DNA of 47,324 bases from Pseudomonadota bacterium (GTDB lineage Bacteria; Pseudomonadota; Alphaproteobacteria; Rhodospirillales; Magnetospirillaceae). The notes beneath the pieces were generated by a model. It had not been told where the DNA came from, did not search any database, and was given only the letters and a program-made list of their open reading frames with translations. Numbering within the stretch: the first letter of the stretch is position 1; every line of letters starts with the position of its first letter. Made by a program: the position numbers and the translations under genes. Shown one piece after another: positions 3,082-37,886 of the stretch. The stretch spans positions 1-47,324 of the forward strand of contig JAJZUL010000025.1 of the NCBI GenBank assembly GCA_021848545.1, read 5' to 3'.

Positions 3082-4011
3082 ATGAACGGAAAACGGCACG
3101 ACCGCCGCGGCGGCGCTTGGGTGGTTCGGTTGACGTTGGCGGCGGCGTTGGCGGCGGCGGGCGCCGCCGGCGCCCGGGCCGATGGTTGGGGTCGCGGGGG
3201 CGATCATTGGGGCCGCGATCACCGGGGCGGCTATCAGGCGGTCCGGGACTTCCGGGAGCATTGGGGCGATCGCGGGCGCTGGGAGGGGAACCGGTTTCGC
3301 GATCGTGAAAGATTCCGCATCGATTCCTGGCATCGCGGGCGCTGGTTTCACGGCTGGCATGACGGGCGGGGCGGCTGGTGGTGGATCGTCAGCGGTCTCT
3401 GGTACTGGTATCCGTCTCCGATCTATCCCTATCCCGATCCCTATCGTCCGCCCTTGGTATCGGCGCCGCCGCCGGGACAATATTGGTACTATTGCCGCTA
3501 TCCGGCCGGCTATTACCCCTATGTGGGGGTCTGCCGGGTGCCGTGGCAATTGGTCACGGCCAGCCCCGGCATCGCCGGTCCGATGGAAGGCCAGCCGGCG
3601 CCATCGGGCGCCAACACCGTGGGCGGCACCATCCTGGGGGCCATCGGCGGCGGTCTCGCCGGCTCGCAGTTCGGGCACGGTCCCGGCAAGTTGGCCGCCA
3701 CCGCCATCGGCACCTTGCTGGGCGCTTTCATCGGCCACGCGATCGGCCAGTCCCTCGACCGGGCCGACGTTCTGGCGTCGCAGCAGGCGGCCCAGTCCGC
3801 CTATGGGGCGCCGCTCGGTCAATCCATCACCTGGGACAATCCCCAGAGCGGCCACAGGGGAACCATCACGCCCGTTCGCGACGGGACCGATTCCTCGGGC
3901 CACTATTGCCGCGAATTCCAGCAGACGGTGACCATCGGCGGCAAGACCGCCGATGCCTACGGGACCGCCTGCCGGCAGGACGATGGCAGCTGGAAGGTGA
4001 TCGACAAGTAG
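3082..4011 (+). CDS. Glycine-zipper / RT0821-like surface antigen family envelope protein
   Basis: 309 residues. An N-terminal signal peptide (basic MNGKRHDRR, hydrophobic LTLAAALAAAGAAG, then ARA-DG cleavage) predicts export. Residues about 35-165 are rich in Gly, Trp, Tyr, Arg and Pro with YPYPDPYRPP-type runs. Residues about 180-230 hold a glycine-zipper 2TM block (GGTILGAIGGGLAGSQFG, then AATAIGTLLGAFIGHAIG). The C-terminal 75 residues resemble the 17-kDa/RT0821 surface-antigen domain (SGHYCREFQQTVTIGGKTADAYGTACRQDDGSWKV). The specific role is unknown; it is probably anchored in or at the outer membrane. No lipobox cysteine is evident at the cleavage site. Its TAG stop is also the first three bases of the hairpin element that follows. 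Confidence 0.85.
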   Translation: MNGKRHDRRGGAWVVRLTLAAALAAAGAAGARADGWGRGGDHWGRDHRGGYQAVRDFREHWGDRGRWEGNRFRDRERFRIDSWHRGRWFHGWHDGRGGWWWIVSGLWYWYPSPIYPYPDPYRPPLVSAPPPGQYWYYCRYPAGYYPYVGVCRVPWQLVTASPGIAGPMEGQPAPSGANTVGGTILGAIGGGLAGSQFGHGPGKLAATAIGTLLGAFIGHAIGQSLDRADVLASQQAAQSAYGAPLGQSITWDNPQSGHRGTITPVRDGTDSSGHYCREFQQTVTIGGKTADAYGTACRQDDGSWKVIDK

Positions 4012-4100
4012 AGCGGCGTGCCTTAAATACGAGGCACGCCGCAAATACGAGGCACGCCGCTCTTGCGCCCATTGAGGGCGCGGCCAAGCGCGCGGACGCG
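4009..4100 (+). repeat. TAG-bounded hairpin element, type B copy 1
   Basis: Starts at the TAG stop of the preceding gene. Left arm AGAGCGGCGTGCCT (4010-4023) pairs with AGGCACGCCGCTCT (4050-4063). An 18-base segment (AAATACGAGGCACGCCGC) is duplicated in tandem at 4025-4042 and 4043-4060, doubling the right arm. The following GCGCCCATTGAGGGCGCGGCC stretch matches the copy at 33720-33800. It may act as a terminator or transcript-end hairpin, but there is no T-run. Confidence 0.8.
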
Positions 4101-4131
4101 CGCGCTTAGGCAGAGGGAAAAACAAAACGGC

Positions 4132-4168
4132 TTAGAGTGTGATGCACATTTAGGGCATCACACTCTAA
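4132..4168. repeat. Hairpin element, TTAGAGTGTGATGC type
   Basis: 14-bp perfect stem TTAGAGTGTGATGC (4132-4145) with GCATCACACTCTAA (4155-4168), loop ACATTTAGG. The same stem core and loop recur at 5521-5549. It lies between two genes transcribed towards each other (3082 + and 4206 -), so it could end transcription from both sides. Confidence 0.8.
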
Positions 4169-5352: not shown

Positions 5353-5520
5353 GCTCTCCTCCTGGACAGCGCTGCTATCCTGACCTGTATTTTCTATGAC
5401 GTTAGTCTAGTCCCCCGGAGGGGGGTCCGGTTTTGCGGAGGCGGCATGGCTGCCGTGCCCGATTAGCGTTTCTGGGCGGGCTCTGGAGCGACGCGCCTGA
5501 AATCTGAAACGTCTGGCTAA

Positions 5521-5549
5521 AGTGTGATGCACATTTAGGGCATCACACT
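5521..5549. repeat. Hairpin element abutting the fliP stop codon
   Basis: 10-bp perfect stem AGTGTGATGC (5521-5530) with GCATCACACT (5540-5549), loop ACATTTAGG, nearly identical to 4132-4168. On the minus strand it begins TAGAGTGTGATGCC, where TAG (5552-5550) is the stop codon of fliP. A role as fliP operon terminator is plausible. Confidence 0.8.
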
Positions 5550-6341
5550 CTAATGGAAGCTCTGCACCAGCGAGCCGACCACCATGTACCAGCCGTCCAC
5601 CAGAACGAAGAAGATCAGCTTGAACGGCAACGAGATCATGGCGGGTGGAATCATCATCATGCCCATGCTCATCAGGATCGACGCCACCACCATGTCGATG
5701 ATGACGAAGGGCAGGAAGATCAGGAACCCCATCTCGAAGGCCCGGCGCAATTCGCTGATCATGAAGGCGGGGATCAGCACCTGGAGGGGCACGTCGGCGG
5801 GCGTGGCCACCGGCTTGGTGTGGGACAGCCGCATGAACAGGCCGAGATCCTTGTGGCGGACGTTGCGAACCATGAAGCCCTCCAGCGGCTTGACGGTGCG
5901 GGTGAACGCCTGGCTTTCGCCGATATCGCCGTTGATGTAGGGATAGACCCCGTCATGCCAGCTTTTGGTGAAGGTGGGGGCCATGACGAAGGCGGTCAGA
6001 AACAGGGCCAGGCTGACCAGCACCATGTTGGACGGCGCGGTCTGCATCCCTAAGGCCTGACGCAGGAACCCCAGCACCACGATGATCCGGGTGAACGAGG
6101 TCACCATGATCAGGATCGAGGGCGCCAGGGACAGAACCGTGGTCAGAGCGATGATCTGGATGATCCGCTCGGTGCTGCTGGCGCCGCCATTGCCGAAATC
6201 GAGGGTGAATTGCTGGGCGCTGGCGGGATCGGCCGCCACCAGGGCGAGGAAGGCCGCCGCGGTCAGCCCCCCCGTCCACAGGGCCGCTTTGCGCCACCGC
6301 GTTTTTCCCGTTTGTTCACGCATCGGCGCGCGCCCCTTCAT
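5550..6341 (-). CDS. fliP: Flagellar type III export gate protein FliP
   Basis: 263 residues. FliP, FliQ and FliR form the export gate of the flagellar type III secretion apparatus in the inner membrane. A cleavable-type signal peptide is visible (RKAALWTGGLTAAAFLALVAADPASA-QQF), typical of FliP. Family blocks follow: TVLSLAPSILIMVTSFTRIIVVL, LRQALGMQTAPSNMVLVSLALFLT, QVLIPAFMISELRRAFEMGFLIFLPFVIIDMVVASILMSMGMMMIPP. The ATG at 6341 overlaps the fliO stop as TGATG, which indicates translational coupling; an ATG at 6323 is an alternative. It is the last gene of the leftward operon, and its TAG stop abuts a hairpin element. Confidence 0.97.
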   Translation of the reverse strand: MKGRAPMREQTGKTRWRKAALWTGGLTAAAFLALVAADPASAQQFTLDFGNGGASSTERIIQIIALTTVLSLAPSILIMVTSFTRIIVVLGFLRQALGMQTAPSNMVLVSLALFLTAFVMAPTFTKSWHDGVYPYINGDIGESQAFTRTVKPLEGFMVRNVRHKDLGLFMRLSHTKPVATPADVPLQVLIPAFMISELRRAFEMGFLIFLPFVIIDMVVASILMSMGMMMIPPAMISLPFKLIFFVLVDGWYMVVGSLVQSFH

Positions 6342-18345: not shown

Positions 18346-18499
18346 CAGGGTAATCGGGTGAAGGCGACTTGGAGCGGAGCGACCAGGCCGTTGAGGCCGC
18401 CGTAGCGCAAGCGAGGATAGCCCAGGGAGCGGACGCGACCGCCCGGCGATTGAGGGAAAATATATAACCCAGGGGAAGCGGGTTCACCCGATTCCCCTG
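18346..18499 (+). repeat. MITE-like intergenic repeat, family A, copy 2
   Basis: 154 bp, bounded by CAGGGTAATCGGGTGA (18346-18361) and TCACCCGATTCCCCTG (18484-18499), 15 of 16 bases complementary. The interior shares long identical stretches with the copy at 33953-34138 but lacks about 30 bases (the CGTGCGGAGAGGCTCC segment). The 3' end holds its own hairpin (18468-18501, CCCAGGGGA/TCCCCTGGG). No coding capacity. It occupies the gap between ettA and cydA. Confidence 0.85.
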
Positions 18500-25093: not shown

Positions 25094-25190
25094 TAGGCGC
25101 AAGGCGCCGCGCGGCTGATGCCGCGGGAGCCAAGCGAACGGAGTGAGCGCCCGGCGATTGAGGGCGGCGTTGATCGGTTCCGATCAACGC
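25094..25190 (+). repeat. Repeat unit ending CCCGGCGATTGAGG, with extra hairpin
   Basis: GC-rich string of small hairpins (GGCGCAAGGCGCC, GCGCGGCTGATGCCGCG, AGCGAACGGAGTGAGCG) ending GCGCCCGGCGATTGAGGG, the same 3' end found in the repeats at 18438, 33630, 33889 and 34080. Right after it, GGCGTTGATCGG/CCGATCAACGCC forms another hairpin (about 25163-25190). Confidence 0.65.
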
Positions 25191-32644: not shown

Positions 32645-32745
32645 GGTCATAAGCGGTGGCGGCGGCACCGCCGCCTTCCGGGCGATCCCGGTGGAATCAC
32701 AGCCGAATCCGTCCGGCGGCGGACGGGAATGGGGGTCTGGTGGCG

Positions 32746-33504
32746 ATGGGCGTGGCCTATCCCGCGATGCGGACCGATGTCGTCGATCTGCGCGATTTCT
32801 ACGATACCAGCCGGGGGCAGATGGCCCGACGCATGATCCGGCGGCGGCTGCGTTATCTGTGGCCCGACGTGGCCGGCCTGCGGGTGCTGGGGCTGGGCTT
32901 CGCCACGCCCTATCTGCGCACCTTTCAGACCGAGGCCGAACGGGTGCTGGCGATCATGCCGGCCGGGCAGGGGGTTCTGCCCTGGCCGGCGGAAGGGCCG
33001 CGACTGACGGCGCTGGCCGACGATGTCGCCCTGCCTTTGCCCGATTGCTCCATCGACCGGATTTTGATGATCCATGCGGTGGAAACCACCGAACAGGTCC
33101 GCGCGACCATGCGCGAGGTGTGGCGGGTGATGGCCGATGGCGGCCGCCTGATCGTGGTGGTGCCCAACCGTCGCGGCATCTGGGCGCAGATGGAACGCAC
33201 CCCGTTCGGCAGCGGCCGCCCCTATACGCCGCAGCAATTGGACCTGCTGCTCCGGGATTCCATGTTCACGCCCATGGTGCGGACCACCGCCTTGTTCCTG
33301 CCGCCCACCGAACGGCGCATGCTGCTGAAGGCGGCGCCGGCGATCGAGGAGATCGGACGGCGCTGGTTCGAGACCTTCGCCGGGGCGGTGATCGTCGAGG
33401 CGGCCAAGGAAATCTACGCCGCCACCGGCGTCCAGACCGCCGACGGCCGGCGGCGCCGCTACGTGCCGGTGGCTCACGGCATGCCCCGGATCGGTGGATT
33501 ATGA
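32746..33504 (+). CDS. Class I SAM-dependent methyltransferase
   Basis: 252 residues from ATG 32746 (GTG 32740 possible). A methyltransferase fold is indicated by VLGLGFATPYL (motif I, G-x-G-like), DVALPLPDCSIDRILMIHAVETTE (family LPFxDxSFDxV pattern) and MREVWRVMADGGRLIVVVPNRRGIWA. Likely a methyltransferase-11-type enzyme; substrate unknown. About 100 bases after the HPt gene. The gap after it is filled with repeats. Confidence 0.85.
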   Translation: MGVAYPAMRTDVVDLRDFYDTSRGQMARRMIRRRLRYLWPDVAGLRVLGLGFATPYLRTFQTEAERVLAIMPAGQGVLPWPAEGPRLTALADDVALPLPDCSIDRILMIHAVETTEQVRATMREVWRVMADGGRLIVVVPNRRGIWAQMERTPFGSGRPYTPQQLDLLLRDSMFTPMVRTTALFLPPTERRMLLKAAPAIEEIGRRWFETFAGAVIVEAAKEIYAATGVQTADGRRRRYVPVAHGMPRIGGL

Positions 33505-33521
33505 AGCGTGGCAATCGCATA

Positions 33522-33645
33522 AAGCCCGCCGTGGCGGGCGCCTGGGCCATTGAGGCCCCGCGGAGCGGGCTTTTCGCGTGCGAAAAGCGCTTAGCGGAGC
33601 GTAGCCAAGCCACCGGAGGTGGCGCCCGGCGATTGAGGGACGACA
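33522..33645 (+). repeat. Composite repeat E-F, intact copy
   Basis: E part (33522-33592): AAGCCCGCCGTGGCGGGC... ending in GCGAAAAGCGCTT, internally palindromic. F part (33593-33645): AGCGGAGCGTAGCC... ending CCCGGCGATTGAGGGACGACAA. The same E part recurs at 33650-33720 and the same F part at 33859-33913, there separated by an insertion. No coding function. Confidence 0.85.
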
Positions 33646-33649
33646 AATG

Positions 33650-33913
33650 AAGCCCGCCGTGGCGGGCGCCTGGGCCATTGAGGCCCCGCGGAGCGGGCTT
33701 TTCGCGTGCGAAAAGCGCTTAGAGCGGCGTGCCTTAAATACGAGGCATGCCGCTCTTGCGCCCATTGAGGGCGCGGCCAAGCGCGCGGACGCGCGCGCCC
33801 GGCGAGGGCCAAATATAAAGCGATTAGACCGTGATGCAGATTTTCTGCATCACGGTCTAGCGGAGCGTAGCCAAGCCACCGGAGGTGGCGCCCGGCGATT
33901 GAGGGACGACAAT
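33650..33913 (+). repeat. Composite repeat E-F, copy split by an inserted hairpin element
   Basis: E part at 33650-33720 is identical to 33522-33592 up to GCGCTT; F part at 33859-33913 is identical to 33593-33645. Between them lies about 138 bases (33723-33860) comprising a B-type hairpin unit and a 16-bp hairpin. TAG flanks both sides (33720-33722 and 33858-33860) where the intact copy has one TAG, i.e. a target duplication of about three bases. Confidence 0.85.
33723..33860 (+). mobile_element. Inserted TAG-bounded hairpin element (type B plus GATGCA hairpin)
   Basis: Left hairpin AGAGCGGCGTGCCT (33721-33734) / AGGCATGCCGCTCT (33743-33756), then GCGCCCATTGAGGGCGCGGCCAAG (shared with 4064-4090), then a 16-bp perfect hairpin TAGACCGTGATGCAGA (33825-33840) / TCTGCATCACGGTCTA (33844-33859). 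No ORF; movement would need an enzyme supplied elsewhere. See the split E-F repeat for insertion evidence. Confidence 0.6.
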
Positions 33914-33952
33914 AAACAGGGACAATCGGCTTCGCCCGATTGCCCCGTGATA

Positions 33953-34138
33953 CAGGGTCATCGGGTGAAGGCGCGTTGGAGCGGAGCGACTAGGCCGTTG
34001 AGGCCGCCGCAGCGTGCGGAGAGGCTCCATCGGGGCCTCGGAGCGCAAGCGAGGATAGCCAAGGGCGCGGACGCGCCCGCCCGGCGATTGAGGGAAATAT
34101 ACATAATGCAGGGGAAGCGGGGTCACCCGATTCCCCTG
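33953..34138 (+). repeat. MITE-like intergenic repeat, family A, copy 3
   Basis: 186 bp with terminal inverted repeats CAGGGTCATCGGGTGA (33953-33968) and TCACCCGATTCCCCTG (34123-34138). Interior identical over long stretches to 1-104 (inverted) and to 18346-18499. It contains CCCGGCGATTGAGGGA and an AT-rich spacer (AATATACATAATG) before the right end. No coding capacity. It ends 54 bases before ligA, so it may carry or displace the ligA promoter. Confidence 0.88.
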
Positions 34139-34185
34139 CCCCGTGATATGAACCGCATGGCGGCGATGCGTCGGGGCGGCTATAA

Positions 34186-37886
<3,701 letters not shown>

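Follow-up and report, generated by a model that had tools for sequence, protein, structure and literature searches.

A short, gene-less hairpin element and its probable insertion at a TA within a tandem intergenic repeat of a Magnetospirillaceae genome

The window analysed here is a 47,324-nucleotide stretch of a Magnetospirillaceae genome and contains a gene-less mobile element of 136 bp (33722-33857, plus strand), delimited by its copies in the same genome and by comparison of the repeat units around it. The element is very probably a non-autonomous MITE that inserted at a TA in the downstream copy of a tandem 128-bp repeat and duplicated that TA, with an IS630-family transposase as its likely mover in trans. 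Its anatomy, the shared ends of its dispersed copies, the TA rule, and sister-genome sites empty of other copies were all observed directly. These results fix the ends of an abundant Magnetospirillaceae repeat family to the base, establish its target rule, and name a candidate transposase.

The tandem units lie in a 687-base gap between a methyltransferase-domain gene (32656-33504; PF08241 match, E 8.6e-07) and ligA (34192-36333; identified by the NCBIfam LigA equivalog). Unit 1 is an uninterrupted 128-bp copy (33519-33646, plus strand), termed the E-F unit in an earlier sequence-only reading. Unit 2 abuts it directly and comprises 33647-33721 and 33860-33912; its left part runs through the target TA (33647-33721, plus strand) and its right part runs from TA onward (33858-33912, plus strand). 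The two units differ at a single position in 128, with A at 33521 of unit 1 and G in unit 2. The extra sequence that splits unit 2 is exactly 138 bp long, comprising the 136-bp element and one duplicated TA. The sequence-only reading had described an intact unit followed by a second copy with about 138 bases inserted, and both statements stand, with coordinates displaced by 1-4 bases.

The 128-bp unit is far rarer in its own genome than the element. It has 11 matches, of which three are the local copies, and the other eight cover only parts of query bases 76-128, around a motif of GCCAAG, a hairpin, and CGCCCGGCGA. Unit 1 carries its own copy of this motif at 33604-33632, and the motif recurs in the right part of unit 2 at 33870-33898. 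As a whole, the uninterrupted unit does not fold unusually well (z -0.7; 44 of 200 shuffles as good).

The element and its flanking TA copies (33720-33859), folded as single-stranded RNA, form four hairpins in the order arm 1, core A, core B, and arm 2, with a fold energy of -90.7 kcal/mol against -52.6 for shuffles (sd 3.7; z -10.3; 0 of 200 as good). Arm hairpin 1 (33721-33756, plus strand) has a 15-bp stem, a 6-base loop, and the outer end TA-GAGCGGC. Core hairpin A (33757-33775, plus strand) has a 7-bp stem and the loop ATTGA. It is followed by the core motif, GCCAAG-hairpin B-CGCCCGGCGA (33776-33805, plus strand), in which the hairpin B stem spans 33781-33798 and the fold extends over 33776-33803 with GCC/GGC closing pairs. 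Arm hairpin 2, also called the GATGCA hairpin (33825-33859, plus strand), has a perfect 16-bp stem and the outer end GGTC-TA. The left and right arms match each other only in their outermost few bases (TAGAGCGGC vs TAGACCGTG), and the window element has no long terminal inverted repeat.

The target duplication is TA, in a context that leans toward T-TA-A, and its two copies lie at 33720-33721 and 33858-33859. An end-finding rule applied to the window and the fetched stretches caught 21 copies, four of which were left out of the flank count: the window copy (the rule was anchored on the upstream GAGCGG), L103 (TG), and L110 and L124 (no left TA). Among the 17 own-genome copies with both ends readable, which may be 16 since L121 and L122 have near-identical flanks, both near contig ends, and may be one locus, G follows the left TA in every case. 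The base after the right TA is A in 12, G in four, and T in one, and T precedes the left TA in 11 of the 17. Because the base after the right TA varies while the G after the left TA is fixed, the duplication is read as TA. A target duplication of TAG was rejected by the filled and empty site alignment and by these flank counts. The sequence-only reading had placed TAG on both sides of the insert and taken it as the duplicated target; TAG is indeed present on both sides, but the left G is the first base of the element itself, which begins one base earlier than that reading implied. The TAG reading arose because the target sequence here was, by chance, TTAG.

A genome search for the insert, suggested by the sequence-only reading, found dispersed copies with the same ends, flanked by TA. 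At E<=0.001, the insert with short flanks (33700-33870) matches its own 3.17-Mb genome in at least 69 pieces (best non-self E 2.8e-45), a result beyond chance. This is a number of pieces rather than copies, since it counts the insert itself, unit 1, and opposite-strand double matches of the palindromic arms. Several matches cover the whole length of the element. This search scored 40 of 171 first-look candidates, and the copy listings covered alignments of at least 60 or at least 50 columns. Three types with a common core occur in the genome and are distinguished by their arm starts: GAGCGGC in type 1, GAGCGAC in type 2, and GAGCGGGATG in type 3. Homologous copies occur in 18 of 33 genera; counting the own genome, 25 of 41 genomes have them.

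Two further copies lie in the window. A second type-1 copy at 4009-4167 has a longer arm region, and an open frame of 320 codons ends at its left TAG. A truncated element at about 5485-5552 joins a type-2 arm start to arm hairpin 2 and has lost the core. The element starts with G at both ends, so a stop codon whose TA receives the insertion is restored as TAG. Among 50 element ends from 25 own-genome and genus-g7 copies, 16 have an end codon that closes an open frame of at least 150 codons; the two alternative frames yield 15 of 100. These are raw counts, and six right ends, two of them among the 16, were mis-set and read something other than TAG. The excess of in-frame stops is only a lead.

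Sister genomes provide sites with and without the element. Fifteen copies were taken from three species that belong to one other genus, and their 150-bp flanks on each side were joined and searched in 12 genomes of that genus, which included the three sources. For at least 11 of the 15, the joined flanks align over the junction without a break to a sister genome that lacks the element, and 20 junction-spanning matches for these 11 loci were aligned using the uncut loci. The comparison of L149 with L172 is exact: the empty site reads GCCGCC-TA-AAGGACGG and the filled site GCCGCC-TA-[element]-TA-AAGGACGG. At L154 (against L168 and L169) and L159 (against L186), a TA duplication fits with one substitution at the site. 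The other eight loci lack the block and have further junction changes, so three loci inform on the duplication. Among the matches listed, L151, L160, and L165 have no junction-spanning sister match, and L150 has only partial spanning matches that reach about 30-40 bases left of the junction. Some cut points of the joined flanks were off by some bases (including L157-L160, L162, L165, and L166), and the L159 query kept one arm. Matches at L157, L166, L162, L164, and L159 are split, with the gap filled by sequence other than the same element; the gap at L191 includes a lone TA-flanked hairpin.

At these loci, one species has the element and one to three aligned others lack it, a pattern that fits gain better than repeated clean loss in what is an unrooted comparison. 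At the window locus itself, the inferred order is that the repeat was duplicated first and the insertion followed. Genomes of the same genus were absent from the 40 relatives searched. A check of ligA-linked loci covered nine of 80 (L009-L017), with the core motif sought on both strands with one mismatch allowed and type-1 and type-2 arm starts sought on the plus strand. The core motif was absent from L009, L010, L012, L013, L016, and L017, whereas L011, L014, and L015 each had one motif-like match, located either past the end of ligA or over 1.5 kb away from its start. No type-1 or type-2 arm start was found on the plus strand of any of the nine. Because L009 and L010, the two nearest named ligA loci, lack the core motif, they do not polarise the locus.

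An IS630-family transposase is the likely mover of the element, a link that we infer from the TA target and the terminal bases. The genome itself has a single match to DDE_3, the IS630-type domain, at E<=0.001, a truncated copy adjoining another IS630 piece. This IS630 remnant, L129, matches DDE_3 at E 1e-32; it appears to fuse the 3' portion of one IS630 to the 5' portion of a second. The right end of L129 carries CTTAGAGCGGGATGAAA, 17 terminal bases that recur in the type-3 copies L121 and L122; L116, also type 3, has 16 of them. This long match belongs to type 3, whereas type-1 and type-2 ends have only a short terminus in common with IS630, and type-1 ends match over about 7-9 bases as judged by eye.

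Relatives of the own-genome IS630 occur in 86 of 248 genomes of the order (E<=0.001). A TA-bounded terminal inverted repeat is present in 12 of the 30 relatives kept, and all 12 have a pair starting TAGAG, which in L222 is the second-best pair. Eleven of these 12 are 1044-1070 bp long and one is 806 bp; the remaining 18 relatives had no inverted repeat under the search rule. Among 21 DDE_3 loci, four have an inverted repeat. Three of these have other ends (TAATACC in L130; TAGTGCA in L132 and L143), and the fourth, L127, and L213 are one and the same element. L213 belongs to the (TA)GAG clade, and its two ends lie 1052 bp from each other. In the proposed mechanism, an IS630-family DDE transposase would work in trans at the (TA)GAG/(TA)GAC ends of the arms, excising the element from another site and reinserting it at a TA. 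The two-hairpin core lies between the arms; it also exists without arms in other alphaproteobacteria.

The long form could instead be ancestral, with the element predating the duplication and having been cleanly removed from the upstream copy. No polarity can be read at the window locus, which leaves room for this order of events, but it requires the exact, scarless loss of the element together with one TA. Homologous deletion needs repeats longer than 2 bp, and a footprint is the usual outcome of Tc1/IS630-type excision. The empty sites elsewhere also favour gain, though the comparisons are unrooted, and an ancestral long form is unlikely.

The hairpins could also be independent modules that recombination or replication slippage has rearranged, as happens in BIME mosaics, rather than parts of one transposon. 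Modules do recombine: arms of types 1, 2, and 3 carry one core, cores are repeated within arms (L235, L237), truncated copies occur (L125 and L126, and the window copy with a lost core), and a lone hairpin sits between TAs at the L191 sister site. Both outer ends are nevertheless kept at TA in the 17 own copies and sister sites lack the element as a whole block, which makes module shuffling an improbable origin. A REP/REPIN-like element moved as single-stranded DNA by a RAYT (Y1) transposase would likewise be a hairpin-rich intergenic repeat, with stems that vary and yet stay paired. It is very unlikely here, as the element has a TA target duplication, which is not expected of Y1 transposases. 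Transposition of a whole MITE into one repeat copy is the preferred reading, and the movement of the hairpin element proposed by the sequence-only reading is supported by the dispersed copies with the same ends and by the empty sites in sister genomes.

The core motif is widespread and patchily distributed. GCCAAG-(6 to 26)-CGCCCGGCGA occurs five times in the window and in none of 100 shuffles, and GCCAAG-(8 to 20)-CGCCCGGCGA occurs 98 times in the own genome, with 0 for the reversed control. With the 8 to 20 spacing, the motif is found in 32 of 41 genomes, own included, with 0-2 reversed controls in each of the other genomes. A class-wide sample has matches in 61 of 289 genomes; many of these genomes have one or two matches without the hairpin, which probably arose by chance. 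In three other families, however, genomes contain 21 to 61 core motifs, and one genome of a fourth has 25. The highest count in either genome survey is 260, in one 3.2-Mb genome (G019). Loci L232, L233, and L242, from one other alphaproteobacterial family, contain tandem core units without arms, spaced at 61-68 bases except for a single step of 107. A further relative of the core motif lies outside the element in the same intergenic region (34058-34087, plus strand). Two more relatives occur in the window at 18420-18449 and 25129-25157, the first with GCCCAG replacing GCCAAG.

Hairpin B keeps its pairing while its stem sequence changes. In 43 distinct copies, hand-picked at equal length from among the matches listed, 97.3% of cells are paired, compared with 74.1% when shuffled and 70.2% when slid by two columns; at least two imperfect stems (L167 and window 18420) lie outside this set. 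In the same copies, 47 cells are changed on both sides vs 11.7 when shuffled, and the covariation score is 0.567 vs 0.152, with 0 of 500 shuffles reaching 0.567. Both-side changes occur in five of six pairs, a figure reached by 89 of 500 shuffles and of little weight. In an unpicked set from the fetched loci, 12 distinct hairpin B stems have a paired fraction of 0.967, whereas re-dealt arms average 0.574. Ten distinct hairpin A stems in that set reach 0.90 against 0.74 (highest of 1000, 0.867), and the GCGAGC/GCGAGC form of hairpin A keeps only four of six pairs.

Rfam has 0 matches in the window at gathering scores, and in 33480-34200 at E<=1 it has a single chance-level match (E 0.73; 34108-34139) outside the element and the units. 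The pairing kept between genomes as the stem sequence changes, with no Rfam match, points to a role at the level of RNA or single-stranded DNA; the pairing itself may be maintained by function or by hairpin-templated repair. The core, comprising hairpin A with its ATTGA loop, GCCAAG, hairpin B, CGCCCGGCGA, and GGG, is tentatively proposed as an undescribed structured element with its own function, patchy in alphaproteobacteria, which TA-target arms might have captured and spread. Because the target unit carries the core motif, the insertion site is itself distantly related to the element's core, and under the same tentative proposal the target repeat would be an arm-less relative, so that the element landed in kin.

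The element family seems undescribed. A literature search found no description of it, which is weak evidence of novelty because sequence motifs are not searchable in this way. The event itself is well supported and of an ordinary kind; the core deserves its own study.

Among known systems, RUP of Streptococcus pneumoniae is described as a gene-less 107-bp element with about 108-110 copies and a TA target, for which IS630-Spn1 is the proposed mobiliser (PMC2229807, PMC3049150). Its terminal inverted repeat is described as short, at 9 bp, and as resembling an IS630-family element (PMC2229807). The element is likewise short, gene-less, many-copied, and TA-targeting; it differs in the shortness of the match between its type-1 ends and IS630 and in the empty sites seen in sister genomes. 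RUP, by description, pairs its two ends together, whereas the ends of the element are separate hairpins around a two-hairpin core. The Correia/NEMIS elements of Neisseria are described as MITEs with TA ends and lengths of about 107 and 155 bp, whose filled and empty sites have been aligned and whose 24-bp terminal inverted repeats pair end to end (PMC2229807). They differ from the element in this end-to-end pairing, in place of two separate arms, and in their hosts. The Caulobacter CcrM-associated intergenic repeats (CIRs) are described as about 110 bp long, with two long inverted-repeat arms, a linker, TA termini, and GANTC (PMC2229807). The element is also alphaproteobacterial and also has two arms and a linker with TA termini. 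CIRs, as known from that description, carry GANTC, whereas no GANTC site is present in the 138-bp insert. The element is probably best filed as a variant of the TA-target, IS630-type MITEs, RUP-like with a CIR-like arm-linker-arm shape.
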